A DNA stretch of 64,000 bases from Argopecten irradians (lineage: Eukaryota; Mollusca; Bivalvia; Pectinida; Pectinidae), in contig NC_091141.1 in assembly GCF_041381155.1 (NCBI RefSeq), positions 24,014,828-24,078,827 on the forward strand, read 5' to 3'. Under the pieces are notes generated by a model. It ran no database searches. It saw only the letters and a list, made by a program, of their open reading frames with translations, and was not told the DNA's origin. The first letter of the stretch is position 1, and each line of letters opens with the position of its first letter. Positions 1 to 58,033 of the stretch are shown here, one piece after another. The translations under genes and the position numbers were made by a program.

Positions 1-800
1 TGGACAAATCCGATGTTACAAATTCCAAAGCTTTGGGTTATCGTTTATGTTTTCACACCAGTATGTAAAAAACTACTGTGTCTCTGATTGGTCAACTCCA
101 TCATCATTTGATTCCTATTGGCTTTTAGCATAGGTCTAATTTATATAACGCATTTTAGTTTTAATAACATTGTATTTACTGTATAACAGCTAGTTGATAT
201 TCAAAGTAAGCATTCAACAACAGAATGGTGGTTCTCTATTCAGGTACTATGTTATATGGCGAAAAGATATTATGAATCATTGTATCGAATTTCCTTGAAT
301 GTATACGAGAAACAAATAATTACCACGTTATAATCAAGTTCCCCAATGCTAGACTATTATTTATCATGTTTATTTAAACTCTATTCAGTTATTTTCGTAT
401 TTTTAAAAGACACTTGCTAAAGTCTTTTTCAAAATTTGAAAACTAACTTATTCGAGTTCGATAAACAGACAGATTTTTATAACGCATGTTGATATAATAC
501 GAACACACATTATTTTCTCAATCAAAGCGATTTGTTAACCCCATATACATGTATCTGAACGTTTTCAGCAATAAATGTGATTGATAACATAATTACATGG
601 TATATATAATTATATTTTCTAAAATATAAGTTAAGTTTGTTCCCCTGTTTATTGACCAATGTATTTCTGCTAGACACATTGTTTGGAAACAAAATAATGT
701 AAGGCAGTGGTTATTCCCATGCTAGTTATACCTGAAAAATAGCACCAATATATGAAGTTGTAATAAAAATAAGACAAAAATATGTATAATGCTGCCACGT

Positions 801-806
801 TTTATT
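801..806 (-). terminator. Polyadenylation signal, copy 1
   Basis: AATAAA on the minus strand about 30 bases after the stop codon at 837-839. Copy 2 has the same hexamer at 13209-13214 in the same flanking sequence (GTGGCAGC). Confidence 0.55.
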
Positions 807-836
807 TGTCTAATCCAACTGACACTATCGAGGTAT

Positions 837-3800
837 TTACCCTACAACAGGCCCGTTATGATGGTTGTGATGGAGTTCAGCAGCGATATGCTGAAACGGA
901 AAACGTCGAGCATTATATACATATTATATTATAAACAAAAGACACACTGGTATTTACCTTTGGTATGTATATATATATCTCTGGCGTAAATGTTTGTCAA
1001 AGGGTTAAAAAATTAAAGAAAAGATTAGTATAATATATCTTATTACTGGTATTATATATAACCTTTGTTATGCATATCGTTTGAGTTAAACTATATTTAA
1101 ATTTTAAATACTTTAAAAATAATTATGTCTTAATGATTATATCTACAAAGTTTCACATAACAATATAATTACAGGTATACTTACCGTCGACATGTAATGT
1201 AAGAAGACGTGCGTCTCAGCTGGTGACGAAATATCTGGGGAAAAACATCAACAATATTCACTAAGGTATAAATTTTGAAATTACAGAAAGTTTCTGCAAG
1301 GAACAAACGACATATTTTAGCGAAAATATATATATATGGATTTCTGCTTAAAATCTTACTTTTGTCAGTCAAAATACCAAACTGAATCCATGTTACCATA
1401 TGATTGTGCGTTCTTGAAGTTTGAAAATTTTGTATTATCTTACGGAAATTTCGTGGAAAAACGAACCGATCAAAATCAGTTGAAAAATTCTTAAATTCAT
1501 GGAACATATATAATAATAATTGCACACATATTATGCTAATCTTTTTAGTTTAAACGTATCTATTGTCAAAAGCGTATGACAAGGGTTAGGTTACAAGTTA
1601 TAACAACTTAATAAAGGCCCTTTCCCAAAATGCAACAAAGTAAATGCATACAAAAATATACATGTGTTTTAGAGTGAGAAATTAATGAAACATTTTTTTC
1701 TTAAAACTTGCTTTTTGACTCAATGTAGTTTTATACATGAATAAATAAATTTGAATTAATTTCATCAGACAAATTTTCGCTTCCATTTAGCACTAAATTT
1801 ATATCAATTTGAATAATGAAGTTTATCATGAAGCCAGATTAGTTGTTTCCATGTCTGATATTTAGCAGACATTCAAAAAAGTAGTGAAAAGTATTTTCAC
1901 GTGGATATCCACATGGACAAGTTGGTTCTTCCATTAGTCCTACCCGAAAGAAGATTATATTATAATGGCCTACTTTGATAGTTGAATATGGTATGTAAAA
2001 TATTCATATTTTGTTTGCCTACATTGACATATTTAGAAGTGGGATTTTGTCAGTTTTGACCAGAGAGCAACGTTTGATTAAATGACCGAAGTGTAGGAAA
2101 AGACCTGGTTTCTAAATCTAAAGCATTCCATAAATATAGTGTTGATAAGAGAACAAAAAACGAATAGTCGATGATAGGCGTTAAAAAGATATTCGTTAAT
2201 CTTCATCATTTTTCAGTACATATTGACTATGCTGACCTACTGTTGGTGGTAATAATATGTATAAATATTCGGGAACAAGTTAATTATGCCTTTGATAAAA
2301 AAGAGAAAGTATACGACGTTTTTGTCTGACATAATTTTTCGAGACTCGTCTCAAAATATAAGGAATGGTTTCTAGTATACGATGGTAAACCAGTTATAAT
2401 ACTGGCTGCTTGTAATTGCATTATTACGCTTATCAACACCCCTGTTCCCTAAATGTAGTTTTGCAAACATTCCTATCTTAAGCTTAATTACTTGAAAATT
2501 CCTGGACTTTACATATTAAAGAGTTAGCTCCCTTACCCATTATTCTGTGGGCGAGTTTCGCATCGTTTTCTTCGAAAAGGATGACGTTACGCTCGCAAAT
2601 TAGTGACGTCACAGTTAATACCTACTCGCCAGGGCAGATACCTCAGTCTTTAATATGCTGAATATAACAACGGAAGAAGTTATAACTTACGTTCAACTAA
2701 GGCAAAGACCTTCGAGTATCCGACTTGTTCTATATAAGGTGTCACTGTTCCATTCTCAGCCGCCTTAGCTAGATTCAACATCAGAGACTGATCTTCAGAA
2801 GATAACTGCTGAAAGGCAGCGTTACCGGTCATAGTATCGATGACGTTTTGGAGACTTCGTCGGCCGACCTGTTGATGTAATAAAAGGATTTATTTAGATC
2901 AATTTCATAATTTTTGTATTGCTATTAGCACAAATATATTGTAATCGTTAAGGTAAAATGATATCATCTGTTTTACTAAAAGTATGAAGTTAATTTATTA
3001 TTGCTTTATTTATTTAACCTTATGGATGCTCTCATAACCTACGATATGATAATTCAAAAGATGGAAAGAACCTACCGTTGGCATAGTTGTTGTTTCTTCC
3101 TGTCCGAGTTCCTATTAAAAGATAATCATACTGTCCATTAGATACAAATTTCGATTGCTCTTTAACCGAAGATCACATACAACGTGTAAAACTCAAAGAA
3201 GACCACATTTCATTTCAATCGTTTACTCCAATACAAAATAGCAAACAACTGGTTTCAACATTCCTGTCATACCGACCATGCTTTGTAATGGAACTCTCTA
3301 ACGAGTAATTGAAAAGCGAATACATGCATTTAGTTCTACATAACGGCTGCGGTATAAAGACTGGACATTTTGAGCAATATAAAATTATCATTCGCTCTGA
3401 TTAACACAGGAAATAAATAACACTTTGGTATCGCCAAAAAAGTATTCCGTATTATCTTGCACATTCTTTTATTGTAAACTTAGTGCATATCTTATCATTT
3501 GAGAAGGTTTTCGTTTCAATAAATTTGTACTCGTGTTTAGTACTGTTCAATCACATGCCTAACCCTCACTAAATAATGTTTTGACATCATTTATCTGCCA
3601 CGCAGATATAAGAAATGTTTATATCTAAAATATTTTCTAAATAAAAAAAAATAATAGAGAAATATAAATAGTATATATAAATACCACAATGAGATATTTT
3701 TCAAACAGGTGAGCCTCCTGCTGGTTGATTCGATTCACATCTGCAATGGAATAGCAAGCTTAGTATTTCCAGTGGATTCTTTGTTTTCCATTGCTTTCGC

Positions 3801-5200
3801 ATTGTCTTAATCTGACTCATTTGTAACAATAATAGTTATCTAATAAAGATATACTTCTTTCTGTTTCTGATTATTTTTCAATACAAACCGTTTATATCTT
3901 TTGTGAATATATCCTATACAACATATCTAAATATAACAATATGCATAATTCAAATGGAGATATTCATATATGGCGCTACTATAAACTCGATTCTTTTCAT
4001 TCAGTAAGGTCTAGAAGCAAAGATATGAAACAGCTTGTTTAAAAAATAGGAGTAGAAAAGTTAAGACCAATAAATCGTTACATAAAACATATGACACAGC
4101 AGATTTCGAGTGCGAAATACGTTAACGTTTAAAAATTTCGTCTTCAATACATACGGTCAAGGAACTGAAATACTCTATCAAGACCAATTCGGTCTACGTA
4201 GTGGGTGACAGTGTCAGTTTCAGCGGCTGCTATCAGTTCTACTAAAATGATCTTTTCCATCTCGGGTAATTGGTGGAATGTATCGCTGCGATGCATGGCC
4301 TGTAGGACCTGGAGAAAGTGGTCTTCTGGAGGGAATGTCGTATGGGCGGCACTCGCGAACGCCACAAGGGACGTCAACAGGGCAGGAAGAAGCATCATCT
4401 GAAATGTGACCGAAATAGTGACACTAAAAGCAAGTAAGTTTTTCAAAACTGGAAAATGTATTAAAGCTGAATGTATTAAGATATGATTCTGTTGCATGTT
4501 TCATCATTTTTAAAACTATACGCATTAAAGACATGTCGACAAAGGAAATATCTGACAACTGTCCATTATGGAATGTGAACTCGAAATCCGGATTATGAAA
4601 GCTAGGGGAAATTTGACCGGACGCCTTAATTACTCCCGTGGCCAATTTGATTTATTACTCCGCTGCAGATACTTATTAAGTATGTTCCCAAAACACGATA
4701 ACAAAAACATGACAGCAGAAATAATTCTTTTGATAATTTTATTCACTACATTTGTAATTGTTGAGCGTTATTGCAGTATTATCTTGGTGTTTGAGTAATT
4801 CCGGTGTACTAACCCCTACTTAAGAGCTGGTAAGAGTGTCTATCTAAACCTGACATGCGCTTAAATGACTAAAAATATTAGCTCCACGTTTAATCAAACC
4901 AAATTTTAATTCATAGCACAATTGGTTCCAGATAAAGGACCAAATTACAATGCATTTTATTTTCATTTCAAAACATATACTGAAGACAAATCAATTCGAG
5001 TTTAAAATAATATTGTTTCTATCACAAAATAATTTTAAACACATATGTAATTACTCATCTTTTTTGTTTAAAAAGATTTACATTTATGTAGTTATCTATT
5101 TCTTTGATTTACAATGTGAATTTATATGGTTAAATACACAAAGAAAGTTCCATACAACTCACCTTGGTGTTTATTGTAGTTAGTCGACTCGAAAGTGAAG
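837..5200 (-). CDS. Secreted two-repeat, cysteine-free, His-tailed protein, copy 1
   Basis: I do not recognise this family. Six coding exons on the minus strand, in transcript order: 4398-4155, 3740-3685, 3111-3076, 2868-2691, 1234-1185 and 890-837 (stop). All have GT-AG borders and compatible phases, giving 205 residues. A 5' UTR exon lies near 5163-5195. Residues 1-18 (MMLLPALLTSLVAFASAA) are a clear signal peptide. The mature protein has no cysteine. It has repeat A (exons 1+2), a 12-residue Glu/Thr linker (exon 3, ELGQEETTTMPT), repeat B (exons 4+5) and a His-rich tail (HIAAELHHNHHNGPVVG). A and B share a pattern like AAE..(T/S)VT.Y(V/I)...G...VF, and both are interrupted by a phase-1 intron at the same place. 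The model is strongly supported because all six exons recur in copy 2 with the same phases. The short His cluster could bind metal, but that is a guess. Function unknown. Confidence 0.82.
2518..2657. repeat. Short MITE with GGGCAGATA-type ends (intron of copy 1)
   Basis: About 140 bases running from GAGTTAGCTCCCTTAC to CCAGGGCAGATACCTC. Inside is a block resembling CGTTTTCTTCGAAAAGGATG, then ACGTTACGCTCGCAAA and a TGACGTCACA-like motif. Related copies lie near 14091-14240, 28695-28850, 34235-34350 and 42283-42440. This copy and 14091 are the same insertion, carried by the duplication. Confidence 0.55.
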
Positions 5201-5232
5201 TCTTATCGTGGTCAGCCTTTATTTATACATTT
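5163..5232 (-). promoter_or_regulatory. TATA box and 5' UTR exon of copy 1
   Basis: Reading the minus strand, a TATAAATA box at about 5218-5230 is followed some 30 bases on by the likely start site and a short non-coding exon. The exon ends at 5163 with the donor GTGAGT. The next exon opens with the initiator ATG directly after its acceptor (CAG|ATGATG at 4398), so the first intron lies in the 5' UTR. Copy 2 has the same arrangement at 16627-16695. Confidence 0.65.
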
Positions 5233-5267
5233 ATACCGTGTTCTCTATCCTGACCACTTTAGTCGGA

Positions 5268-5425
5268 ACCTAACATATGTTTAATTCACGAACCGTCCAG
5301 GATTCCGAAAAAAGCAAGTGTTCACGTGTGTCCCCACACCGTTGATTTCTCGCAATCACTTCAATCGTTGATACCCTCGAGGTACTATTTTACAAACCCA
5401 TGTATTTATAGGCTGGGTTGAGCAG
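5268..5425 (-). promoter_or_regulatory. Conserved upstream block of the duplicated gene (copy 1)
   Basis: About 150 bases just upstream of the TATA box resemble 16742-16890 upstream of copy 2 more closely than the introns resemble each other. They include a nearly identical stretch with ACGAACCGTCCAGGATTCCG and a GAGGTACTATTT motif. This is a candidate proximal regulatory region. It could also just be a slower-diverging part of the duplication. No factor site is assigned. Confidence 0.4.
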
Positions 5426-5687
5426 TGAACCAAAATCCGGATATATGCTAACATCAGTGATAAGGATATATCTGTCACGAAATTAATTAGGATAGTTGTC
5501 AGCGAAAGTACGTTAATAATCTCTCTCAATCTTTAATATATAATTATATACCGGCACCATATACAGGTAGACTAATACAGACAGCATTAATTAACATGAT
5601 CAAATAGCGATAGGTTATCCAACATTTCAGATATCATTCCGAAATTGTCGTAAACAAGCAGTTTGTAACCTTTACCCCTTATACATT

Positions 5688-5875
5688 GTTTTACCAGGGT
5701 TAGCGTGTTCGAATCCAATACGGAGCAGTTGCCGACTTCTGACCGTTGGTCGGTGGTTTTCTCCGGGTTATACGGCTTTCTTCCGCCTCCTCAACCTGTT
5801 ACGCCCTAAATTGATACTGACTGTTACTAGGACGGTAAACTAATCAAACAAAACCAAAACAGTCATCACTAAAAT
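5688..5875 (+). repeat. tRNA-derived SINE, degenerate (left copy)
   Basis: A box-B-like GTGTTCGAATCC is followed by GGAGCAGTTGCC, a CTGACCGTTGGTCGGTGG block, a GGTTTTCTCCGGGTTATACGG-like stretch, and a tail with ACTAGGACGGTAAAC and AAACCAAA. This order (tRNA-like head, conserved body, A/C-rich tail) is typical of bivalve tRNA-derived SINEs. Related pieces lie at 17271-17490, 35030-35125, 47985-48055 and 61675-61800. Family name not assigned. Confidence 0.55.
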
Positions 5876-5999
5876 CACAAATTTAGTAATGTTAGTAATC
5901 AAAACTTTACAAGTATTATGACTAAAGGTGGTTATTTTTGTAAATAACAATTTAACATCAGTGATATAGCATTGATTAGATGGTAAAAAAGACAATCTT

Positions 6000-8475
6000 C
6001 TCGTTAAAAAAAGGTGACAGGAAGTTGCGCTTGCTGTTCCGGTGTTGATTTTTGCCGATGTTCGTTTATTGTGCACGTCTTATTGTAATGTATTTGCACG
6101 CTATGTAAATTTAATCCATTATATGTTACTAAATGGTATTAATTCAATTTTGATGACAGTAAAAGTATTGTTTGGGATCGACGTTCTGTGTATCTGTCTC
6201 TAAAAATGAATTCGTATCGACCGAAATGGTATTTATTTATTGTCATAAATAACAACAGCAACGACAATTAGTTTTTTGTATTTTTTCTACTTTGCCACAT
6301 TAAAAGAGTTCAAATTACAATTAATAATTATTAGGTAATGCGTTGATTCTATGATGGATTGAATCTGAAATTCATTTTCATTCAATTGTGCTATTAGTTT
6401 AAATCAAACGCAAAATAAATATTTGTAAAACGTATGTTGCTAAAGGAAAATTTCGATTTATTTATATGCACCATTAATCAAAATAGACATCAATGATTGA
6501 AGTTAATTATTTTCTCTGTTAAAAACTCTATCTAACTTGAAAAATACCAACAAAGCAATTCAATAAATCAACAAAGCTTATCTTCCAATTAGTCCATTGG
6601 TAGAGGATTCTGTTATCAACAAGTTTATCTGAAGGTCCGAAACAATTTTTATGGGATGATTTCAGCATTGCCATGCCGAAGTGTGACACTGTAAATAGAC
6701 GTATTTTGACGTTCGAAATTTTTGGTGTTTTTGTATCATAATTGGGTGATTATGTGTTGAATGTTAGCGTTTTCATATACCTATTGTACTTATGTACAGA
6801 TTTTCACACATTTCATGGAATGCAAAAACTCGAAACAGAGCCAAAGAAGTACATTATGTAAATGACATCGACTCGCTCCTCTCACTGTAATTAATAGTGA
6901 ATAGATGAATCGATCTGTATCATATTCAAATATATATATAAATATAAGTTGTCTACTTAATAAATACATTACTCTAGAGTTCACTTTCTAGATTATATAG
7001 ACAAAATAAAATAGAAGTAGACTTACACTACCAAAATAAAGAGTAAGAAAATAAAAGTCCAGCTTTGTATAACGACGTCATTTAATTAAGATGTATATAA
7101 ATTTGATAATATCATGTCAAACGCCAAATAAGCCAAATTATGACCACATACAAATAGCAAATGTTTGATGAAATAGGGTCATAGCATTTTTATTTTGCAT
7201 TGTGTCCTATTATTTGACATGGTCATATCAGGACAGCTCCTTATCGTATTATGTATTTAGGGCGAACATTTAAAGACATCGTGTTATTTGTGCTACTTAG
7301 TATATATTTAGACAATAAAGATATCGCGTTTAAATGTCGTTTAAATTGGGATACAAATCGGTTTAATCATGTATTTCCCTACTGCATTTCGGAGATTATT
7401 TAAAGATCGTTTGATCTCCGCATCAAGTTCGTCGTCTGAGAAATTAGATGGAGTTTATATTTTTAGTGAGATCGCATTGCATAAAAAGTTTCAAATTGAA
7501 CTAAGCTTTATCAAAGGCCGCATTATATCCATTAATATTGCCCGTGCATTACTTTGCATATGACGCTAGTGTGTTATACCATGAACCGATTGTCATTAGC
7601 CGAAAATTCATTGTGTTCAATAAGACGACTTTAGAACAAACAAAGTAATATCAACAGTTTGAAATTTTATAAAGCTAAGCTTAAATTCACGTTCGCTAAG
7701 GCTATGAAAATATAACTGGGATTGGTTCATACAATCACATATGAAATGAACACTGATTTAAGATCCTATATATCATTAGTTAGTTCACTTTCTTGTTACA
7801 TCCATTTAATCTAATAACGGCCTAAGTCATTGTAGAAAATAATGTGAATATCTGAGAAAATATTGTCAGTATTTGCCAACATGCCAACATGAATTATTTC
7901 CACATACACTACTGGATCTATAATGCTGTCAACAAACTTCCCATATATCATTTACATATCGGGGCCGTTAGATTAAGTAATATCTCTTGACAAATGCATA
8001 ATGTTACTGAAATTCATTTCATTTATTTTACAAATTAATGTAAAAGCAAAACGTCGAGTCACATAAGTTAATAGATTATGATAAATACGACAGATATTAT
8101 CACTTCATGGACAATACTTAATAGATATACCAAATGTTGCTTTGCATAACGCGGGTCGGTTGATGTGTCTTGACGTTGTTCTTATTACCACACAACGCCA
8201 CAAGACAAACCAGTAAAATTATTGTTACCAAAGTTTTACACAGAGAATCAATCACGCATTTGTTTGGAGCAAAAATACTGATGTCTTCTCATTACATTTT
8301 TTTTCATAATTGATCTTTATTGCTTTTTATTTATCATTATTTTTTGTTGTGTCGGAAACATAGATGGTGATTAAATAGTAAAAAAACAACGAATTAATTA
8401 ATCTGGACTACACGCATTATAAGGACATAGAAAAGAGAGAGAAAAAATCATTCACAACCATTCGGCATTTCCAAC
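6000..8475. other. Intergenic DNA without recognised genes
   Basis: AT-rich sequence between the left duplication block and the foldback element. All open frames are short and none resembles a known protein. A degenerate tRNA-like stretch (about 6593-6650) is noted under rejected items. Confidence 0.5.
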
Positions 8476-8478
8476 CCT

Positions 8479-11400
8479 CAAAATAGGCTTCTTAATAGGC
8501 CATTGGCTAGGAGGGTCCCACATGCATCCCCACCCAAACCTCCAAACCAATATTTTTCTGAACCCTTATGACCCGTTGCTTACAAATCAAAATGTTAACA
8601 TTGCATAAGTTGGGATGAACTTCCGGTTATGTCGTCATCAAGATGGCAGCCAACTCCAATTTCACTAAAAATTGAAAAACAGTCATAACATTGTCATTTT
8701 TCAACCGAAATTGACAAATGTGGTATCAAAATGACCAAAATAGAACAACAAATACATCCCAGGACCAAAAGGTCCAATATATGTAGCGATTTCTATGCAG
8801 GAAATGAAAAAATCGAATTTAAGCTCAAAATTGGTATTTTTTAGCAAATTTTGCATACTTGGCTTTATGCAACAAAAATGTTTCCAAACAGCAAACTATT
8901 ATTTATAATCTGTTATTTGACCTCTTCTTAATCAGTAAAAGCAACAACAACAAAAAAAATCCAATGTTAACATTGTATAAGTTCCGGTTATGACGTCAAC
9001 AATATGGCCGCCATCTCGAATTTCACTGAAATATTTAAAATAGTCGTAACATTGACATTTTACAATAGAATTCGACATACAAAGTATCAAAATGACCAGA
9101 ATAGGACAACAAAAACATACCAGAACAAAATAACCCAATATGTAGTTCTTTGTACGCTGGAAATAAAAAATTAATACTTAAAGCTCAAAAATGGTAACTT
9201 TTTGAACAAATATTTCATATTTGTTTCAACGAAGTAAAATGTTTCCTAACAACAAACTTTTATTCGTAAACAGTTATTTGATCTCTTAACAATCAGTAAA
9301 AACAACAACAGCGAAAAATATAGAAATGCAAAAGAGAATTATTGTTATACCATCATTTGGTTTAAAATCATCAGCGGATGCGTATACAGGGATGAATGTA
9401 ATGTTTTCCAAACCGCTACTTAGCATTTCCTGAATATAATATTGGCTATTGACGATTTATATCTTAATAAATTTGAATATAAAGTTAGCTGAATTTCTAA
9501 GGTGAACTTAAAATTTCCTAGCATAATCCATTTTCACATTCGAAATTTTCTAGACTAGTAGCGTCTCAAAATTATTTATTCCAGCACAACGTCAACTAAT
9601 AGAGTATCAAATAAAAACTGAGGAAAGCCTGTGTTTCCGTTAATACCAAGATACTTTTCGAAACGTTTTGTATCTTTTACAATGAACATATACATTGTTT
9701 ATTCCCTGTGAATAACATAAGGGAATGTCATATAGTATCTACAGTGTCACATATTTCTTTATCTAGTTCTTAATGATAATCATTATCATTATGCTTGCTT
9801 TCTCGCCTGAGTGTCGTCTTGGATGTCGATGAGCTAATGAGCTGATGTGACATTACATTACCGGTTTACCATCGTGGTTCTTACTTGTCAACCGTCCATG
9901 GCCAGTATTAACACCAGGAACATCGGGTTCAGGGATGTTGGAGCTCTTCCTCTTTCTAAGCTAGTGATTTATATATCGTATATGATGTTCCAGAACTTCC
10001 AAGCATGATTGAAAAAACACCAGATCCACATTCTGCGAAGGGTTGAGGTGGTTCTTCTTAATTCGTATGAAGCACACTGCCTCATTCTTGTGAACCCTCA
10101 GTGACCATAGATGACACAAGTGAATTATATGAGGTCATAATTGAGGTCTGCATTGTAGAGAACTTTTTTCTGGAGAGTCTTCAATGGCGTCTCCACGCAT
10201 ACACCAGCTGTGACAAAACCAGCACCATCAAGGGAATGGGAAAAGTCAGACCATTGAAAAACATTTAACATCTTTGATCTCATTAATGATCTCGAGGGTA
10301 TCACCTATGCCATCTATGGCCGCACAATGGTCAACAAGGTTAATGAATGGTGGTTCATACGAATTTTTGAGCTTTTTGCTAAGGAGAACTAATTCCACCA
10401 TTCGAAGAGTATATGGGCATTGATAGGTCATAAAAGATGACAGGCTACAACAGCACTGGTAAGGAATTTGATACTAATGTATCGATTACTCTGATTTGGA
10501 CTGCATGTTCTAGCTACCAGACATACCGAGTCATTTCTGTGGATAGAACAGTGAGGCGAGAAAGCACCCATAATGATAATGGTTATCATTGAGAACCAGG
10601 GAAAGAAATATGTGACACTGTAGTAACCATCTGACATTTTGATAATGCTACGCATAGGAAATAAACATGAAAATGGATTACATTAGGAAATTTTGAAGAT
10701 AGGAAACCATGACTTGTCCCACCTGGATAATATGTCAAATTTGAACTAATGGTTTCTACTTATAAATCGCTAATAGTCAATGTTTCTATCTAAGGAAATC
10801 ATTATACACCAGGAAACTGTAGTAGCAGCGGTTTGGAAAACATAACAATCATATTTCACCTATACGCAGCCGGTGATGTTTTGTAAACAAAATGATGGTA
10901 TAAAAATAATTTTCTTATGCATTTTTATATTTTTGTTGATATTTTTATCTTTACTGATTGGTAAGAAGTCGAACAACTGATAACGAATAGCAGTTTGTTG
11001 TTGGAAATCATTTTTGCTTCGGTGAGACAGATGTGAAATATTTGCTCAAAAATGGTAATTTTTTGAGCTTAAAATATTATTTTTTTATTCATTTCCTTCT
11101 TACACATTACTACATATATTGTATTATTTGGTCCTAATATGTATTTGCGTTCTATTGTTGTCATTTTGATATTTCCTTTGCCTACTTCAGTTGAAAAATG
11201 TCAATGTTATGACTATTTTTTACTTTTCAGTGAAATTCGAGAAGGCGGACATTTTGATGACGTCATAACCGGAACTTAAACCATGTAAACCCTTTTTTCT
11301 TTTGTTGTTGATTTTACTGATTGATACGAGGTCAAAAATCTATCAGGAAATAATAGTTTGTTGTTTGAAAACATTTTTGCTGCTTGAAGCCAAATATGGA

Positions 11401-11762
11401 AAAAATTGCTAAAAATAATTTTTTAGCTAAAAATCCGATTTTTTCATTTCCTGCATAGTAACAACTACACATATTGGATTATTTGTTCCTGATATGTATT
11501 TGCTGGTCTATTGTGGTCATTATGACACCTCATCTGTCTACTTCGGTTGAAAAAAATTTAATGTTATGACTATTTTTCAATTTTTAGTGAATTTCGAGAT
11601 AACGCCATCTTGATGACGTTATAACCGGAAGTTCATCCAGACTAATGCAATGTCAACATTTTGATTTGTGATCAGTGGGTCACAAGGGTTCAGAAAAATA
11701 TTGGTTCGGAGGTTGGGGGGATGCATGTGGGACCTTCCTAGACCATAGCCTATAATTAAGCT
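8479..11762. mobile_element. Large foldback element with ~1.3-kb inverted arms
   Basis: The left arm (about 8479-9820) reappears as an imperfect reverse complement at about 10540-11762. The outer ends match as GTCCCACATGCATCCCC against GGGGATGCATGTGGGAC. The inner ends match as AATGATAATCATTATCATTA against TAATGATAATGGTTATCATT. Each arm contains two diverged direct repeats of about 355 bases (8589-8946 and 8961-9307 on the left). The central ~700 bases (9830-10540) are not repeated. No transposase was recognised, so it is non-autonomous or decayed. No target-site duplication was identified. It lies between the two paralogues, outside the homologous part. Alternatives are a large MITE or a Foldback-type DNA transposon. 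Confidence 0.75.
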
Positions 11763-11769
11763 GTCGAAG

Positions 11770-12280
11770 ACTCGGCATAACCTCCGGTGTGACCACTAAG
11801 AATCTTACTGACTCTTGACGTACACTGTTTTCTATCGGAATTCGTTTGTGTTCGCTTCACCCACGTTTTTGACCCACCATTTTGTTTACATTCATTTGAT
11901 TTGTGCAGTGCATTGTGGGAGGTCACTAAAGTTCAACACTACTATACGTTACGACCGGGTCGGTTCAAAATACAGAAAGATGGAATTTCCATTATAATTA
12001 TTTATTGGACACATTTGCACAATAACTGATATCTATTACATAGTAAGGTATCTGACACGTCTTAAATATGTATTTTACTCAAATTTACATGGTTTATTTA
12101 GGTTCATGTCCCTTTAATCAAACATATGATATTAATTGAAGATATTTAAACAGTAAATATCAAGATACCAAACATACGGTATTCACTTTTACGATACCTA
12201 ATGAAATGGAACGTATAGAAAAGATTTTCCTATTTCAAAACGCGAGTCCTCATTAATCCTCTAACTACGCATGTTTCACA
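11770..12280. other. Intergenic spacer
   Basis: About 500 bases between the foldback element and the right duplication block. No gene, strong repeat or RNA signal seen. Confidence 0.4.
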
Positions 12281-13208
12281 ATGGACAAATCATGTGAAAA
12301 ATTCCATAGCTGTTGGATATCCTTTATGTTTAATCACCAGTGTGTAAATACCAACGGCGCCTCTGATTGGTCAACTCCATCATCATTTGATTCTGATTGG
12401 CTTTTAACGTTGGACTACTTTTCTTAGCAGATTTTTTTTCATAACATTTTAGTTACTGTATAGCAAGTAGTTGCTTATTCGAAGGTAGTATTAAACAAGA
12501 GAATACTGTTTCTCTATTAAGGTACTATATATCATGGCGGAAAGATATTATTACGCTTTGTATGGTGGTAAGTTTCCGTGGATGTAGAGGAGAAATAATT
12601 GATCAACGCGAAATAAATATAAAGATAAATTTTTGGTTAACAAGTTCCCCAATGCTTGACTGTCTATCATGTTCATCAAAACTCTTATTAGTCAATTTTC
12701 TTGATTTTAAAAGACACTCATTTTTATTTGGAAATTAACTAACTTGAGTTCGATAAACAGACATATTTTAATACCACATGTAGATATAAAACAAGCGAAC
12801 CTCATTTTCTCAGTAATTTCAAACTCAAATTGCAATTCGTCAACAACTCATACCCATATCTTAACGTTTTCACCAATGAATATGATAAATCGTATATATA
12901 ATGATATTTTATAAAATTAAAACAAATTATGTTCCTCTGTTTATTGACGTTTGTAATTCTGCCAAAGAAATTGTTTGGAAACAAAATAATGTAAGACAAT
13001 GGTTGTTCCTATTTCATTCTTTACTTTCTTCCATTGCAACAGATACTTTGAAGAAGCGCAGTAGAGTCACGTGGAACTCGTTATATTACTGTGAATCATT
13101 TATTTATGTTAAAACCACTGCAGTATGACACTGGTTATACCGGAGAAATAGTCCAATACATGTAGTCGTAACAAAAATAAAACTAAAAGCTGTATGATGC
13201 TGCCACAT

Positions 13209-13214
13209 TTTATT
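13209..13214 (-). terminator. Polyadenylation signal, copy 2
   Basis: AATAAA on the minus strand about 30 bases beyond the stop at 13245, in sequence shared with copy 1. Confidence 0.55.
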
Positions 13215-13244
13215 TACCGAATCCAATTGATACCATCGGCTTAT

Positions 13245-16200
13245 TTAACCTAAAACAGGTCCATTGTGATTGTCGTGATGCAGTTCAGCAGCGATATGCT
13301 GAAACGGAAGACATAGAGCATTATAAACATATTACATTATAAACAAAAACACACTATTGTTAAACTTTGTTACATGTATGTAATATTTGGTATACATATT
13401 TGTTAAAGGTCTATATACCTCTGTGTCTTATTACTAGTAATAGTCTTTGTTATGTATATATTTAGCTCTCACATAACAATGGAACTACAGGTATACTTAC
13501 CGTTGACATGTAATGCAAGAAAACGTGCGTTTCAAATGGTGACGAAATGTCTGGAAAAAAAAACAATAAAAAATAACTAATGTATAAAATTGCAAAAAAT
13601 GCTTTTACAAGGAACAGAATACATAGTTGGAGAAAACATAGTAAATGAATTTCTGCTTGAAATCTTACTTACCCAGCCAAAGTGCGACATTGATCACATA
13701 ATCTTACTTTCCTGAAGATTCAAAACTTTATGGATATTTCTTAGAAAAAACAAACCCATAACAATAAGAAATTTTGTCACAAGTCATGAAATGTGTATAA
13801 GTATAATTGTAAATATGTTAAGTTTATTCACAAGCCCCCCCTCCCCCACCCCCAATGCAGTTTCACAATCATCCCTGCAAATTACTTGACAAATCCCTAA
13901 GGAAATCATTATCAAATCTTAGAACAAAAAAAACACAATTAAACGACTTTTCCGTAACATCTGTAAGGCTTCCTTTTGTTAATTTTGAAGTTTAAACATT
14001 TCCTGGTGTTAAGAAATCTTCATTTAATTTGACCCATACTTGTGACCATCTTATGATTTTAAAGGAAGATAATTCGTCTTCACATATTACAGAGTTAGTT
14101 CCCTTTCGGGTGGGTATCCTGTGTGACGTAAATATTTTGTGAGTGCGTTTCACATCGTTTTCTCCGAAAAGTATGACGTTACGCTTGCAAATACATGATA
14201 TCACAACCAATACCTTCTCACAGGGGAAAATACCTCTATGATATTGAACCACATAATATATCAAAGAGTGAAGCAATCACTTACGCTCAACTACGGCGAA
14301 GACCTTCGAGTATCCGACTTGGTTTATATAATAAGTAACGGTTCCATTCTCAGCCGCCTTAGCTAGGTTCAACATGAGAGACTGATCTTCAGAGGATAAC
14401 TTCTGAAAAGCAGCGTTACCGGTAATTTGAGTGATGATGTTTTGGACTTGTCGTCGGCCGACCTGTTGGTGTATTGAAATATTGTTAAACAAATAGTGTA
14501 GATGTCATGATATTTGGTATTCTAATTGCAGTAATTTGTTTCGGTGACTATAAACATTTCGTTGTAATGGTTAAGGTAATATGATATAAACTGTGTTGTA
14601 AAACGTATAGACATGATTTATTATTGATTTTTGTTTTACTTTATTGATATTTATTCATAATCGACTATCTCATTTATTTTAAATAAATATACCTACCGCT
14701 GGCATAGTTGTTGTTTCTTCCTGTCCGAATTCCTATTAAAAACAATCACATTAAAAACGAATTAGGATTGTTCTTTAATTGCATTCATATACAATGTGTA
14801 TAATTCGAAGAATAACACATTTCAAAAGTTTTCTCTAATAACAAAAATAGCATAGCAAATAATTGTTCCCCAGGGATTTTTTCATAAAGATCGTGCTTTG
14901 TGATGAAACATTCTAGCGAGTTATTGAAAGGCAAGTACAAACATTTTGTTCTACATAAAGATGAAGTGGCGTAACAAGTGAATTTATTACGAAATTTCTA
15001 ATTTTAACTAAGTGTATATCTAATTATTAGAAAATATGTTCGTTTTAATACATATTTGTATTTGTATGAACACGTAGTACTGACCTATCATGTGAGAATC
15101 TCTCTTAATATAACTTATGATTTACAGATCTATTCGAGAAAGAAATGTCTTTTGGAGTCCTGTATTTGACACGTAGATATAAGACATACTATGTCAAAAA
15201 TGTTTGTAGATAAAAAAATAACAGAGAAATATCAATATAAATACCACAATGAAATATTGTTCAAGCTTGTGAGCTGCCGTTTGGTTAATATGATTCACAT
15301 CTGCAATGAAACAGCATGTTTAATATCTCCAGTGGTTTTTTAAACCCATATGTTTTCCTACTATCGCAATGTCAAATCTAGCGGACTCATTTGTAATATT
15401 AATAATGAATTAACTCAGATACATGTCTTTATTTTTCTGAAAAAATATTGATACAAAACATTTGCATTTTTGTGAATATATCCTATACAACTTATATATG
15501 GCGCAACTTCATTCTTTTCAGTAAGGTCTAGAAACATAGAAATGGAATAGTTTGTTTAACAAATATCGGAACAAAATATATTATCAATACATCGTAGATT
15601 AAAAAACCGCGAAATACGTTAACCTTTAAATTATTGTCTTCAATACTTACCGTCGAGAAACTGAAATACTCTATCAAGACCAATTCGATCTACGTAGTGG
15701 GTGACAGAGTCAGTTTCAGCGGCTGCTATCAGTTCTACTAAAATGATCTTTTCCCTCTCGGGTAACTGTGGGAATGAATTGCTGTGATGGATTGTCGTTA
15801 GGACCTGGAGAAGGTGGTCTTCTGGAGCGAATGTTGGACCGGCGGCACTCGCGAACGTCACAAGGGAAGCAAGCAGGGCAGGAAGAAGCATCATCTGAAA
15901 TGTGACTGATGTGGTTATAGTAAGAAGGCAAATATTTTTTTTAAACTAAAGCCGAAAACATTAAAATGATATTGTATTGATAGTTTACATATAATTTTGT
16001 TGATTTATATATATCCTTTAAAAAGGACAACTGAAATTAAAGGCAAAGTCAAATACGAAAGAGGTTGGCAATTGTCCAACGTGAGATTTGAACTCGGAAT
16101 CCGGAAGAAGAGGCCTAGGGGAAACGTGTCGGGACACCGTAATTACTCCCGCGGTTTATTGGATATCTTCCTCAGCTGGATATATTGATAATGTCCCAAA

Positions 16201-16665
16201 ACAAAATAGCACAATTCAGCTTATGATTTTTATATTTTTAGATTACGAAGACGAGAGCTGGCCAGAATGTATACCTGACATATTCTTAAATGACTCCAAG
16301 CATTGGCTCTACGTTTAATACAGATAAATGAAACCGAAATTGGATTTGTAGCAAATTATGTACCAGGGGAAGCACCGCAGGGCTATGTGTGGGATTTTTT
16401 TTCATTTCAAGAAATTTATAATGGAAAAATCCATTCGAATTTAAAATGATATATTTCAAGTCAGAATTGATCGTTTTCATAACAAAGTAAATTTTAATAC
16501 CTTTAATCAGTCAGCCTTTATCAATTATCACCGATTTACATGTATGTATGTATAAAAAGTAATTAAGGTTGTTCACAATGAGAATTTATATACTTATATA
16601 AGCAAAGAAAGTTCCATATAACTCACCTTGATGTATGTAGTGGTTGGTCGACTCGTAATTAGTGT
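13245..16665 (-). CDS. Secreted two-repeat, cysteine-free, His-tailed protein, copy 2
   Basis: Tandem paralogue of the gene at 837-5200. Coding exons in transcript order: 15894-15651, 15300-15245, 14732-14697, 14462-14285, 13550-13501 and 13298-13245 (stop). Exon lengths (244, 56, 36, 178, 50, 54) are identical to copy 1, so the product is again 205 aa. The 5' UTR exon ends at 16627. The signal peptide is MMLLPALLASLVTFASAA. By eye the copies differ at about 13 of 63 mature exon-1 residues, 8 of 19 in exon 2, 2 of 12 in exon 3, 10 of 59 in exon 4, 1 of 17 in exon 5 and 3 of 17 in exon 6. The tail is HIAAELHHDNHNGPVLG. Both copies look intact and have a TATA box and an AATAAA signal, so both are probably expressed. 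The length match across introns of different size is good evidence for real coding exons. Confidence 0.83.
14091..14240. repeat. Short MITE with GGGCAGATA-type ends (intron of copy 2)
   Basis: Positional and sequence counterpart of 2518-2657 (GAGTTAGTTCCCTT start; GTTTTCTCCGAAAAGTATG core). It dates the insertion to before the tandem duplication. Confidence 0.5.
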
Positions 16666-16697
16666 AGCCTTACAGTGGTCAGCCTATATTTATATGT
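16627..16697 (-). promoter_or_regulatory. TATA box and 5' UTR exon of copy 2
   Basis: On the minus strand, TATAAATA (about 16686-16695) is followed by a leader with GGCTGACCACTG and GTCGACCAAC-like sequence. The leader ends at 16627 with a GTGAGT donor. Position, order and sequence match the copy 1 leader, which supports a real shared core promoter. Confidence 0.65.
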
Positions 16698-16741
16698 ATG
16701 CATAAACGGACCGTGTCCTCTCCCACGCCATTTTTTTGTAA

Positions 16742-16890
16742 TCTAACATCGATCTAATTTACGAACCGTCCAGGATTCCGGACAAAAAAGTGTTCAGGTG
16801 TGTCTTCCCACCGTTGGTCACTCGCGATCACTTCAATTGTTGATGCTATCGAGGTACTATTTCATGAACTCATCTATTTATAGGATGTGT
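16742..16890 (-). promoter_or_regulatory. Conserved upstream block of the duplicated gene (copy 2)
   Basis: Counterpart of 5268-5425, with the same order of short conserved words and the same distance to the TATA box. The second half ends in CTATTTATAGG in both copies, which could be a second TATA-like element reading toward the right. Confidence 0.4.
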
Positions 16891-17270
16891 GGAACAGTGG
16901 AACTACATGCTGAGCTTTGTTGTAGTGATAATACTATAAGTCTCGTATAAGCGATTGTTGCTGCCAGTAATTTTGTTTGTTTGGAATATGCTAATTACAG
17001 TATTCAATATTCAATTAGATACTGTATCAAGCAAATGATGAATGCAATCAGTTGCATCACTTACAGGTATACTTACAGCATTTATCACCATGAATTGACG
17101 TACAAATCATTCGCCAACAAAATTGAAATGGAAAACGGATAGGATTGTAAACTGAAATATTTCCAGAAAAAAAACGTTAGGGCATCAATTATTTCAAATA
17201 TCATAATAAATGTCATTTCGAAATTATCGTTAACAAGAACAGTTTGTAACCGTAACCCCGTATACCGCTA

Positions 17271-17490
17271 GGTGAGAAATATCCTAGTGATTAAGATGTC
17301 CCGACTTATTAGTATTCTGGGTCGCGTGTTTGAATCGCATGTGGAGCAGTTGACAGGAACTGACCGTTGGTTGGTGTTTTTGCCAGGTACTGTGACTTTC
17401 TTACGACTTTTAAACCTGTAACAACCTTCAATGGCCTTGACTGTTAATAGGACGTTAACCCAATTAAACCAAATCAAAACAATCATCACT
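17271..17490 (+). repeat. tRNA-derived SINE, degenerate (right copy)
   Basis: Longer, better-preserved copy of the element at 5688. The head has CTAGTGATTAAGATGTCCCG (tRNA A-box region), then GTGTTTGAATCGCATGTGGA (box B region), the GGAGCAGTTG and CTGACCGTTGGTTGG body, and a GTTAATAGGACGTTAACCC tail. It lies at the same place in the duplicated block as 5688. Confidence 0.6.
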
Positions 17491-17609
17491 AAACACAAAG
17501 GTCTTTGTACGTTATAATTCAAACATTTACAAGAATTATGATTGAATGTTGTAATTTTTGTAAATTGCACTTCTTCTTGATAACTTATTAAACTTTTTTG
17601 CGTTAGAAA

Positions 17610-18433: not shown

Positions 18434-20953
18434 ATGGGATCTGTATGGGCGCGGTTCATGGTTGGACTGACTGTATTTACAGCAGTGACAGGTAGGATAA
18501 AAATACAACCAAACCTGTTTATAACGACCACTCTATGAACAGGAAAAACTGTGGTCTTTATACACAGGTTGGATTGTGCTCTAGTGTTTCATTTGGGATC
18601 CTAGAAGAATGGTGTGATTAGGAAGACTATATAAGTATATTAAAATATGAAATATCCATTGAGTTCAATTTTGAAAACGTGGTTATAAGGCTACAGTGAG
18701 TATTTTGTGTCAATAAGACACATATATACAAGATTTAACATCAGTGATTGTTCAAGTGATAGGTACCATTTCTGCTCTGTCGGCGGTGGGGCATCTTTAA
18801 ACTTAGGCAAATAATAGTATGTAATGGGATTGGTGAGAGAGAGCAAGGAGGAGTTGATTTTTTTTTACTTTAAAATACTAAAAAATGTTTGCTAAATATT
18901 AATATTCTTTCTGCTGTGAATCGCATTTGAGAGTTTGTAATTATATCTTATTCACCACACAATTGAATTATTTACAAAATCCTTTCAACATTTTATGGCA
19001 AAGTAATTGAACTACTTTATCTCTGAACACAAGCAAAACATATATTGGTGTTGGGAAGCTTAAAAAATAACACCCTTCTCACAAGATTATTGTTTATTCC
19101 AGGACCGTTTTACAGTAATGCCACATCGAACACGTACACGGTTGGGTTTATGGAAAACATGTTTTCGCCAGTGCTTCAAGTCGTGATTATAAATATTGGT
19201 ATAGATCCAGCTGCTATAAACATCTCTTTACACTCCGGCCAGATCGTAAAAGAAGTTCTTGACAAAGAATCATTCAGAGTCTATAACATGTCTGACGAAT
19301 TAGAAGTCATAGGTTCCAACAGAAGCACCAAAGGAGTACGGGTTGATTCAAATGCGACAATTACCGTTATTGGTGTAAATCGTGTAGAAGAAATGTCAAA
19401 AAATTCCATGGATTTATTTACTGGTTTGGAATATTCTGACATTGGGACGCACTACTTTACTGTAAGTGGAGGTTATGCTTCTCAACTTCTTATAATAGGA
19501 ACTTCAAACCAGACTCAGGTTACGGTAAAATTGAGAACTAGTGGCAAAGTCATCATTTACAAAGGCGCAATCTACAACGATTTAGACATACTCCAAGAGG
19601 TAGTAGACGAATTCGATACCATCCAAATACAGTGTGAAGCTGATCTCACCGGAACAGAAATACAATCAACTCGTCCTGTGAGTGTTTTGAGTGGAAACAA
19701 GTGGTACGGATTTTTTGGCGGAACCTCTGGATCATATTTGGTTGAGCAGTTGTCTCCTTTGGAAAGCTGGGGGAGATATTGTGTCACTACGGCACCTAGA
19801 GGATTCAGCTACTTTGTGGCAATTGTTGCCGGATTTGACGACACTTATATTGAATTAAATTGTGTTGAAACGAATGTTACTCATTTGTCCCTGAACCAGA
19901 CTTTAAATTCTTATAAAACGGAAGAGTTGTTTCATGCCTGCGTTATCAACTCTACTGAAGCGATTCTCGTTGCTTTAATGCCGGTTAAAAGAACAAAAGA
20001 TGTATCATTGGTTACAGCACTGTCAATGCAGACTGTGTCAAATAATATATCTGTTTACGTACCAGCGATGTTTACATCAGCCGAGCTTGTGTTAATAACA
20101 TCTGAAAATGGTTTTAACGCTTCTAGCATAACACCACAACCAATTGAAGTCACCTCTTATGGCATCATCAATGGCTTTTTTGGAATACATTTTCGAGTTA
20201 ATGAAGGGCTCTCTATTTTCTCTATACTACAATCGAAAGGGACGGTAACAGCTTACGTTCACGGAACAAGAGAGTTTGGTTGGGAGTACGAGTCATTCGC
20301 TTACCCATTGATAACACACGATGATAAGGTATGATCGTAATTTCGTGTTGCTTTATTTAAACATCGATGTCACTGTTTTTAAAATTTCACTGAGGTATGA
20401 AAATAAATTTTTTGCACAATGTAGCGGCTTTTCATAAAAAAATTATCCAAGCAAAATGTATTTAGTATAAAAGTAAAGAAAACATATTTATTACATTCTT
20501 AACAGTATTTTAAATTAAGATGAGGAATAAGTTCCAGTGAGATATCAGCATCATTGTATGTTTCCATACCGGTAATATATATTTTGGAAATCACGTGGAT
20601 TTTTACTCTATGTAATTTTGTGTTATTTGTTTTTATCAAATGCATATTATTTTCAGTGGGATACAACGACTGACTTATCAGTGACTTCTGTGTCGACTTG
20701 CAGTCGAGAAATTTGCTTTTGTGAGCATATATACACATCCGCAGAAAAAACAGCCCTGGCTAAGGAGTTACAAATGAAACTTTTGGTTAGTAAACATACA
20801 ACGAACAAGTACCTGCGATCCAAAATTTCTGCCTCGGACAATAGAACCTCTGCAGCGGCTGTTGGCTATATAGCAGTAGTATTTCTTGTGCTGATAGGGA
20901 CATGCTTGATTGTATTAGACGTAATCACATTTGTGTGTAACGTCAAAAGATAA
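18434..20953 (+). CDS. IgGFc-binding-domain type I membrane protein
   Basis: Three exons: 18434-18491, 19103-20328 and 20657-20953, with phases 1 and 0 and GT-AG borders, giving 526 aa. Exon 1 is a signal peptide (MGSVWARFMVGLTVFTAVTG). Exon 2, about 409 residues, resembles the N-terminal domain of IgGFc-binding protein (FCGBP-like), with typical features such as RPVSVLSGNKWYG, a VEQLSPLESWGRYCVTTAP segment and repeated beta-strand patterns. About a dozen N-glycosylation sites (such as NAT, NIS, NQT) support an extracellular location. Exon 3 has a short Cys cluster (CSREICFC), a stalk with KISASDNRTSA, a transmembrane helix at about 497-517 and a tail of about 9 residues. The M at 19045 is not the start, because an acceptor at 19101-19102 continues the signal exon in frame. 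Mucin-binding or pattern-recognition roles are inferred from FCGBP. No vWD or trypsin-inhibitor repeats follow, unlike vertebrate FCGBP. Confidence 0.85.
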
Positions 20954-21014
20954 AACTCGTATTGTGATAATAATGTATCATATTCAAAAGAATTTCATAT
21001 ATTTCAGTTTATTA

Positions 21015-21795
21015 TACCTCAAGTGAGAATCCTGCATTCTGATTGGTCGAGAGATATTTGGTATTTTACACTATCACACGGCAGGTAACATTAGAGCAAT
21101 AACAAACAATAGACACATTCGTAGCAACCCCCTAGCAACGGGTGATAGTGTATTTTTGACAGTGCAAAATATTAACCGCCCGAAAAAGATGCGCACTCGT
21201 TTCTTTTTTCGACGCCATCTTTGTTTTTTGAAGCGACGCTTCAAAATTTATCTGGAGCTATTTAGTAATTGTTTTGCCAAGTTAGTCTATTTGTCAATAA
21301 TTGTTTTTCATATTAAGGACGGAGCTTTCCGTTCACGCCTTTTCGCTTACCGTCAAAGCGCTATATGTTGGATTTTATGAACTCGTCGGTAATTAGGTGA
21401 ACGGAAGACATGCGATTTCAAGCGTCTTCTTGACGTTGCTAATGTTGTAAACAGACGACGGGACGAAACCAAAATTCCTTGAGATTTACGAGATTTACAA
21501 AAACGTTGAGATTTTTACAAACGCAGGAGATAAGACAACAAAACTTTTTCACTAAATGCTTATTGTGAGTATTCTTTTTAAAAATGCACCGATAGTTAGC
21601 TCTACTGAGTAGAAGCTGATATGCTATTCTACTGCCGACGGTGACTGTTCGACTTTTGCTATAATCAGTTAAATGTTTCAGTAGAAAATACTTGAAAACT
21701 AGTTTTGTTTCTAGACTTTTGGTATAATAAAATAAATACTTCCTGCATTAGAGGGTTACAGTGCCTAGTGTCACCCTCTAAAGTAGTATTTATAT
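21015..21795 (+). repeat. Dispersed repeat, inverted relative to 53.7-55.0 kb
   Basis: Starts with TACCTCAAGTGAGAATCCTG and ATTGGTCGAGAGATATTTGG, continues through AACCGCCCGAAAAAGATGCG and TTGAAGCGACGCTTCAAAA, and ends with CTGCATTAGAGGGTTACAG. The same pieces occur in reverse complement at 54555-55030 and 53726-53850. This copy has about 340 bases (21300-21640) that the other lacks. Basic-looking open frames here belong to the repeat. Probably a MITE or a non-autonomous DNA transposon. Confidence 0.65.
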
Positions 21796-22249: not shown

Positions 22250-23340
22250 GATAACAATCGATGCTTCCAATGGTTGGTTTGTTTACCAAGTTAACCATTT
22301 TAAATAATAATAGCAATGCTTTGGTTGCAATTGATAATTAACATTTATCAACTACATTTGGAGAATATTATTGGGATATAAAGCCTTCCAAATTGATTTC
22401 ATTACATGCATTGCCCGTCCAGCCATGTCATATGGCCATACCTATTGCACAAAATAAATGGAATCAAGATTTTGAAATTGATCGAGATGAATGGGAAAAA
22501 ATTAATAAACATCCTTTTAATGGTAGTACTAGCTCCAACCTTCAATGGTTGCAATTCCGAATTAATCACAGAATACTAAATACAAAATCATTTTCATTAA
22601 AAATTGGTAAATTAAACAGCAATCTATGTACTTTTTGTAAAACATATCCAGAAACAATAGCTCATATATTTTGGGACTGTGAAAATGTATCAAATTTGAT
22701 TGAATAATTAAGAATATCGATAATTACTAATAAGTCTTAGATTTAAAAAAAAACAAGATTTTATTTTCGGCAAACAAGATGGTTCTCATTCTAATTTTCA
22801 TGCTGAAAATTTGATACTGCTTCTAGTAAAACAAGACATGTAAATGTCTTGAAAAAGAACTTAACATAAACAGTCTAAAAATCACATAAAATTTGAATTA
22901 AAAGCTCACAATATTATAATATCTAATAGTAATCTAAAGCGTAAACCACTGATACTTGCAGAACTACAACATTGGTTAAATATATAAATAGTAACATTTT
23001 AATAAATGTTCTTGAAGTGTCTCTGACCATACTTTAATCCCTGTTTCTGTCTTTTCCTTGGTGTACTTTCTCTGCTTTATCAAGAGTTGTCTCCCTTATT
23101 CACTTTGTCACTTCATTTGTAGGAAGGGTAATAACTCTTGATAGATAGTCAATGTGTGTAGTCAATATGTGTGTACTATGTAATGTTTAATAGGATAATT
23201 GTTAGTACAATTAATTATTTGTTTTTGAATATTTTTTCATATGTAACAATTATTATATTTGTCTTTAATGTATCTCTTGTCAATGTTGTTTTGTGTATAT
23301 TATTTTTAAAACATGAATAAAAAATAATTTTAAAAAAATG
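22250..23340 (+). mobile_element. 5'-truncated LINE, 3' end with zinc-knuckle tail
   Basis: An open frame at about 22393-22707 reads like the C-terminus of a non-LTR reverse transcriptase. It has a tryptophan-rich segment (DEWEKINKHPF), LQWLQFRINHRILNTKSF, and a C-x2-C-x8-H-x4-C knuckle (CTFC...HIFWDC) of the zf-RVT type. A 3' untranslated stretch of about 600 bases follows and ends A-rich (GAATAAAAAATAATTTTAAA) near 23335. The endonuclease and catalytic RT domains are absent, consistent with 5' truncation. The clade cannot be set from this piece. Confidence 0.7.
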
Positions 23341-23664: not shown

Positions 23665-23935
23665 ATTAGAGATTCTCTATCTATATATTGTTCGTATAAA
23701 ACAACGGTTGATATTTACAACACGAAGTGAAGTAGTGTCAAAGGGTAAAGCACCTACAGATGGTAAAATTGTTCGTATGATGTTGATAAAATACCTTTGA
23801 TACTGGGAAATTATGAGTGTCCTTTAGTGTCATTAATACTTTTCTGTGATAAGCTGACTCTGATATTCAGGACTACTAATAACGCGGTGATAGGTATTGC
23901 CTTTGATGTATCCCATATTGTACATGTATTATAAG

Positions 23936-24086
23936 ACTCTTTCATATGTGGATATGAAGGATATGGATATTCTACCCGAGGGTCACAAATTGTAGTAAAA
24001 CCCGGGGATTGCCTAAGGTTTTGCAACATTTTGTGATCTCGAGGGTAGAATATCTCTATCCTTCATATCCACATATGAAAGAGTAT
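23936..24086. repeat. Foldback MITE with 42-base arms
   Basis: The left arm starts ACTCTTTCATATGTGGATAT and runs to TTCTACCC. The right arm mirrors it as GGGTAGAATATC to ATATGAAAGAGT. The interior has a second weak inverted pair (acccgagggtcacaaa / tgtgatctcgagggt). It abuts the next element. Confidence 0.65.
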
Positions 24087-24088
24087 TT

Positions 24089-42641: not shown

Positions 42642-42774
42642 AAAGTTATGATATATCGGAGACAACCGAGTAGATTGATGTTGTTGTTTTGTTTTTTATT
42701 TAGGTTCGACAACAATTATTTGTGTCGCATACTTTGGTCTTTAACCATGTCTTCAAGATACGACATTATACAAA

Positions 42775-42966
42775 TATTAACTTTTTGAAGGTGAATACGA
42801 GGATTTGTTAAACCTTTGATAGGTGATATTACCCTTGGCCCGAGGTCGAATACCAGGAAAATTTTTAAACCTGAGAAAGATGATATTCCCCGAAGCCGAA
42901 GGCCGAGGGTAATATCACCTTTCAAAGGTTTAACAAATCCTCGTATTAACCTGCAAAGAGTCAATA
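42775..42966. repeat. Foldback MITE with 75-base arms
   Basis: The left arm contains AATACGAGGATTTGTTAAAC and AGGTGATATTACCCTTGGCC. The right arm mirrors it (GGCCGAGGGTAATATCACCT ... TAACAAATCCTCGTATTAA). Arms are near-identical, with a loop of about 43 bases (42849-42891). This is among the best-preserved foldbacks in the window. Confidence 0.75.
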
Positions 42967-50138: not shown

Positions 50139-50246
50139 GGGCCCGGCACCATCAAACTATTCTAAGACAGATTTTTACTCAAGTATATGATTTTACATAG
50201 GCTTATGTAAACAATCTGTCTGAGAAAGTTTTATGGTGCCGGGCCC
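50139..50246. repeat. Compact MITE, 108 bp
   Basis: The ends GGGCCCGGCACCATCAAAC and GTTTTATGGTGCCGGGCCC are inverted repeats. Inside, AGACAGATTTTTACT pairs loosely with AACAATCTGTCTGAG, so most of the element could fold on itself. Confidence 0.75.
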
Positions 50247-53725: not shown

Positions 53726-53850
53726 CTACCTGCATTAGAGGGTGACATTGCCTAGTGTCATCCCGAGGATATCACCGGTTCGCCTCGGGTGACAGTGATA
53801 TTCCGAGGGGTGACACTAGGCACTGTAACCCTCTAATGCAGATAGTAGAG
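53726..53850. repeat. Foldback MITE with 53-base arms
   Basis: The left arm TACTACCTGCATTAGAGGG ... GCCTAGTGTCATCCCGAGG is mirrored by CGAGGGGTGACACTAGGCAC ... CTAATGCAGATAGTA. A short form of the same end (CCTGCATTAGAGGG ... CCCTCTAAAGTAGTA) closes the repeat at 21.7 kb. Confidence 0.75.
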
Positions 53851-57880: not shown

Positions 57881-57882
57881 AA

Positions 57883-58021: not shown

Positions 58022-58033
58022 AAGATTCTATTA

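Follow-up and report, generated by a model that had tools for sequence, protein, structure and literature searches.

Two genes lie in tandem on the minus strand of the 64-kb window (the whole stretch of DNA that was analysed). Splicing of the window sequence by script gives six coding exons for each of them, spanning positions 837-4398 for copy 1 and 13245-15894 for copy 2. Each copy is carried by one unit of a segmental duplication. The features are listed below in order along the window.

1..5945, no strand assigned: segmental duplication unit 1, cut by the window edge
801..806, minus strand: copy 1 poly(A) signal AATAAA (sequence match)
837..890, minus strand: copy 1 exon 7, end of repeat B, His-rich tail and stop (splicing)
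1185..1234, minus strand: copy 1 exon 6, later part of repeat B (splicing)
2691..2868, minus strand: copy 1 exon 5, repeat B core (splicing)
3076..3111, minus strand: copy 1 exon 4, Glu/Thr linker (splicing)
3685..3740, minus strand: copy 1 exon 3, final part of repeat A (splicing)
4155..4398, minus strand: copy 1 coding exon 2, signal peptide and repeat A core (splicing; 88.5% identity to the copy 2 exon)
5163..5197, minus strand: copy 1 non-coding leader exon (donor seen, start inferred)
5220..5227, minus strand: copy 1 TATA box TATAAATA (sequence match)
12282..17565, no strand assigned: segmental duplication unit 2 (similarity to unit 1)
13209..13214, minus strand: copy 2 poly(A) signal AATAAA (sequence match)
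13245..13298, minus strand: copy 2 exon 7, end of repeat B, His-rich tail and stop (splicing)
13501..13550, minus strand: copy 2 exon 6, later part of repeat B (splicing)
14285..14462, minus strand: copy 2 exon 5, repeat B core (splicing)
14697..14732, minus strand: copy 2 exon 4, Glu/Thr linker (splicing)
15245..15300, minus strand: copy 2 exon 3, final part of repeat A (splicing)
15651..15894, minus strand: copy 2 coding exon 2, signal peptide and repeat A core (splicing)
16627..16664, minus strand: copy 2 non-coding leader exon (donor seen, start inferred)
16687..16694, minus strand: copy 2 TATA box TATAAATA (sequence match)

The rebuilt models agree with the first-pass annotation, which had described two intact paralogues of 205 aa with identical exon lengths and phases. 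In both copies the coding exons measure 244, 56, 36, 178, 50 and 54 nt (the last including the stop codon), all introns between them are GT-AG when rebuilt from the sequence, and the 618-nt coding sequence specifies a precursor of 205 aa. The start ATG begins at the first base of exon 2. It is preceded by a non-coding leader exon whose donor, AAG/GTGAGT, is read in the sequence at 5157-5165 (copy 1) and 16621-16629 (copy 2), while its 5' end is a putative one, set from the TATA box. The latter lies approximately 57-60 bp upstream of the leader donor and an AATAAA is located 30 bp downstream of the stop codon in both copies. Sequence matches thereby confirm that TATA box, leader exon and poly(A) signal are common to the pair, as had been claimed. 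The estimated transcript length is about 710 nt. Taken alone, the gene anatomy and the repeat anatomy described below can be regarded as nearly certain from the sequence. Such an architecture, in which a compact gene has a TATA box, brief untranslated regions and a second copy nearby, would suit a well-expressed secreted protein.

The two duplication units align as 8 pieces with 69-84% identity and the segmental duplication, judged by sequence comparison, is old. Similarity continues as far as the window's left edge, so that additional copies may be present beyond it. A tblastn search identified no third copy of the coding sequence elsewhere in the 64-kb window (best outside match E 0.37). A foldback element occupies part of the region between the units; its inverted arms are each about 935 bp long and 80% identical (8487-9420 and 10824-11761). 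Neighbouring reading frames match the IgGFc_binding, G_glu_transpept and BTB_2 models, which fits animal DNA.

The precursors of copies 1 and 2 are 81% identical. Their N-terminus is hydrophobic (computed hydropathy) and ends in ASA/A, near which a signal peptide cleavage is called by eye. Residue counts reveal neither cysteine nor tryptophan in either precursor, so that the absence of cysteine, previously noted for the mature protein, applies to the whole precursor. The mature forms have a computed pI of about 5.4. Copy 1 has 24 acidic residues and 15 histidines, copy 2 has 22 and 13, and each has 10 basic residues. The architecture initially proposed, with a signal-like start, repeats A and B, a Glu/Thr linker and a His-rich tail, is found in both proteins. 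However, the HHxHHN form of the tail holds for copy 1 (HHNHHN) and not for copy 2 (HHDNHN). The product, of about 21 kDa, is acidic and probably secreted, and is predicted to be all-alpha. Cys-free helical secreted proteins are uncommon, although precedents exist among apolipoproteins, nematode FAR proteins and insect Bla g 1-like gut proteins.

Repeat A covers residues 25-100 and repeat B residues 114-195. They are 31% identical over 68 columns in copy 1 and 26% identical over 54 columns in copy 2. No shuffled sequence reached the repeat A-B score in either copy (0/2000 in each), which upholds the two internal repeats seen earlier. Phase 1 introns interrupt codons 82 and 172, which align with each other, and the short exon following each core exon ends in phase 0 in repeats A and B alike. 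The similarity of the repeats together with their common intron codon and phase shows that a unit of two exons was doubled within the gene. This unit is a "core exon plus short exon" cassette, and the 36-nt exon acts as linker. The duplicated cassette would encode a helical unit of about 75 residues and the Glu/Thr-rich linker exon, of 12 residues, would connect the two helical units. The intron codon common to both repeats provides a clean example of growth by two-exon duplication, a point that goes beyond the first-pass annotation. Twelve columns are identical across the four repeat cores (F, L, L, V, Y, V, F, two Ala, one Gly, one Glu and one Thr). These are mostly hydrophobic or small and include no obvious catalytic set, which favours a fold core over a catalytic site.

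Comparison of the two copies shows 534 identical bases out of 618 in the coding exons with 0 gap runs, whereas the five introns between them retain 1269 identical bases out of 1968 aligned and include 45 gap runs. A Nei-Gojobori-type count gives dS 0.27, dN 0.12 and dN/dS 0.44, the latter being one pairwise value from two sequences that does not apportion constraint between the copies. Per site, non-synonymous changes are fewer than synonymous changes (Fisher p 0.0007, rounded counts). The gap-free exons, set against the intron gap runs, and the dN/dS value suggest that both copies are functional, and the pair has probably been constrained since the old duplication. The view that these are real paired genes is therefore sustained, with a signature of purifying selection in both the dN/dS and the exon/intron gap contrast. 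Loss of function in either copy or in both is very improbable: the reading frames and splice sites are intact, as are the exon lengths, and the same dN/dS and gap distribution argue against it.

Constraint differs along the protein: repeat A has a dN/dS of 0.70, repeat B one of 0.30. A faster changing repeat A might be expected of a recognition, immune or reproductive protein. However, the counts in this repeat are small (10 synonymous and 26 non-synonymous changes) and there is no sign of positive selection, and we consider such a role improbable. In the tail, 3 non-synonymous changes are found in approximately 23.5 sites, the sites of tail and linker being too few for a dN/dS to be read. These changes bear on another possible function, in which metal binding is the main job: the tail and the other histidines would bind Zn, Cu or Cd so that these metals could be transported or detoxified, with the helical units as scaffold. 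The number of histidines in the mature proteins and the retention of a His-rich tail in both copies are consistent with this. Nevertheless, the tail is short and differs between the copies, cysteine is absent, and none of the 12 columns that are invariant across the four repeat cores holds a histidine. Metal binding as the main job therefore seems unlikely.

AlphaFold was run on the contiguous exon-encoded cores of copy 1, with the four cores aligned as input to each model and the last part of each repeat left out. Both models are all-helical (repeat A core, 63 aa, pLDDT 79.2, pTM 0.59; repeat B core, 59 aa, pLDDT 83.1, pTM 0.61) and contain five helices in the same order. The helical character suggested for the protein at the outset is thus supported by prediction for the repeat cores. 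These compact predicted units, together with the lack of low-complexity or strongly acidic tracts, do not resemble what would be expected of a structural protein of the extracellular matrix, for example of shell or byssus. Although the protein is acidic, secreted-looking, His-containing and encoded by tandem paralogues, we regard this alternative as quite unlikely. Searches of PDB folds with the partial queries gave 37 matches to E 10 for core A (63 residues, best 2.9) and 11 for core B (59 residues, best 6.4), none of which is credible. Among the best 50 of the 80 matches of core B to viral folds, none had E <=0.001 (best 2.9). Short helical queries have low power and the missing fold match is therefore weak evidence for a new fold. 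It is with considerable doubt that one might see here a new animal fold, in which a secreted Cys-free helical unit, duplicated both within the gene and as tandem genes, would form a novel extracellular carrier unrelated to solved structures.

Family searches gave a similar picture. Pfam scans were run to a maximum E of 10, with HMMER filters removing most matches above about E 0.1. They returned MgtE_N (E 0.017), SpoVR (0.023), ATPTG10 (0.14) and MycE_N (0.15) for copy 1 and DUF659 (E 0.094) for copy 2. These were judged to be chance matches since no family matched both copies and every score lay under its curated cut-off. The four repeat units matched 0 Pfam families. Four NCBIfam families each matched one of the two members, the best being RssC (E 0.0023, 17.7 bits compared to a cut-off of 250). 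No credible match was found among PDB sequences (best E 2.2, 0.8 and 1.1). Viral contigs, bacterial and archaeal genome contigs and phages contained no relatives, as expected for an animal gene; part of the viral-contig and bacterial/archaeal search used as its query just the 81 aa encoded by exon 2 of copy 1. In the open-licence literature, no protein of such a plan was found in the titles or abstract starts among the matches listed, and none of six peptides taken from the scallop sequence, each 7-9 residues long, occurs there. A paper on a scallop cadmium-binding protein (PMC12357810), in the part available, names a meprin, which is a different protein. The absence of a family match anticipated earlier is thus verified within Pfam, NCBIfam, PDB sequences, PDB folds and viral folds. 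The "undescribed system" that had been put forward is not, since the evidence reveals one protein family with a paralogue. We regard the family as genuine and as an orphan relative to these libraries; its type, a secreted protein whose genes occur as tandem paralogues, is a familiar one.

We tentatively propose that the two functional tandem paralogues specify an internally duplicated helical protein that serves as a non-enzymatic soluble carrier or binding protein. For this statement as a whole, including the function, we estimate a probability of roughly one in three. The protein would pass into the gut lumen, the haemolymph or some other fluid outside the cell; there its two helical units might together hold a small, probably hydrophobic ligand. 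The His-rich tail may add a weak metal-binding or pH-sensitive site. Several observations count against a carrier. The PDB fold searches with the 63- and 59-residue partial queries gave no known carrier fold and repeat A is under less constraint than repeat B. Moreover, helical repeats are also found in structural and membrane-active proteins.

It is conceivable, if rather doubtful, that the pair represents a divergent member of a known secreted helical family (Bla g 1-like, FAR or molluscan vdg3) missed by weak or poorly stocked searches. The general plan is that of Bla g 1-like and FAR proteins, and the sequence searches were confined to PDB, viral, bacterial, archaeal and phage sets. However, no such family appears in the Pfam results, in which matches above about E 0.1 are mostly filtered, and PDB provides no credible match by sequence or, with the partial models, by fold.

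Bla g 1-like proteins are secreted, all-helical, Cys-free and gut-expressed, bind lipid and are composed of tandem repeats. Their helical repeats, with a unit of about 100 residues, form a hollow capsule filled with lipid. The insect allergen repeat family is present in Pfam-A, and we take PF06757 to be the corresponding profile (insect allergen related repeat, Bla g 1 / midgut G12). The scallop protein shares the Cys-free secreted character (0 Cys, signal-like N-terminus by eye). However, its unit is shorter (about 75 residues), and the repeat cores, predicted to be helical, have no PDB fold match when the partial models are used. The profile is also absent from the Pfam results for the two full proteins and the four repeat units, within the limit of the filter given above. 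FAR proteins (presumably PF05823, nematode fatty-acid and retinol-binding proteins) are secreted, helical and Cys-free, have about 180 residues, bind fatty acids and retinol, and are likewise represented in Pfam-A. To our knowledge they are not a clear two-unit duplication. Their profile is absent from the same results for full proteins and repeat units, which are subject to the same filter.

Mollusc proteins offer a further comparison. The orphan product vdg3 is reported to be mollusc-specific, to have several paralogues or variants, to be very abundant in the digestive gland and to be of unknown function (PMC5549309, PMC4203926, PMC4655091, PMC2810337, PMC4133350, PMC3517415, PMC4938671). 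Its abundance and multiple paralogues would agree with membership of the scallop pair in this family. However, the Mytilus vdg3 transcripts given in this set of papers (501 and 531 nt) are shorter than the approximately 710 nt estimated here. In the digestive gland of Mytilisepta virgata, abundant "probable apolipoproteins" reportedly lack detectable sequence similarity but show an HHpred likeness to apolipoproteins; they may be a parallel to the scallop protein. The find alone opens no long-standing question. If truly uncharacterised, the scallop protein would take its place as one more secreted protein of unknown job beside those reported to be abundant in the mollusc digestive gland.

Upstream of the promoters of both paralogues encoding the Cys-free precursor lies a block (5290-5412 for copy 1 and 16755-16884 for copy 2) that appears strongly conserved in the alignment, as judged by eye. 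Both versions of this block carry a second TATA-like sequence, CCTATAAATA, and the block may correspond to an alternative promoter or an enhancer.

A foldback-type element is located between the two gene copies. Its arms (8487-9420 and 10824-11761) are inverted with respect to each other, share 80% identity across 952 columns and each include nested direct repeats. A dispersed repeat is also present in inverted orientation (21000-21296 vs 54681-54981; 91% identity across 301 columns). Five MITE-like palindromes, each matching at 77-84% when aligned with its reverse complement, and two fragments with weak domain matches, both under the curated cut-off, were identified:

23933-24087, MITE-like palindrome
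42770-42971, MITE-like palindrome
50139-50246, MITE-like palindrome
53724-53847, MITE-like palindrome
57872-58032, MITE-like palindrome
22342-22704, zf-RVT fragment (E 5.8e-05)
62651-63028, Phage_integrase fragment (E 3.8e-05)

The two fragments are probably remains of mobile elements.

Three neighbouring coding frames match known domains:

19027-20331, plus strand, long open frame, IgGFc_binding (E 5.6e-28)
27704-28003, plus strand, frame, gamma-glutamyltranspeptidase (E 1.4e-10)
52531-53178, exon, BTB_2 (E 5.1e-30)

The IgGFc_binding frame sits right of copy 2. Immediately upstream of the gamma-glutamyltranspeptidase exon, a 161-bp stretch occurs twice (27208-27368 and 27362-27522) with 100% identity and an offset of 154 bp; this pair may be a tandem duplication that occurred recently, or else an artefact of the assembly. 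The BTB_2 exon looks like a voltage-gated potassium channel T1 domain.
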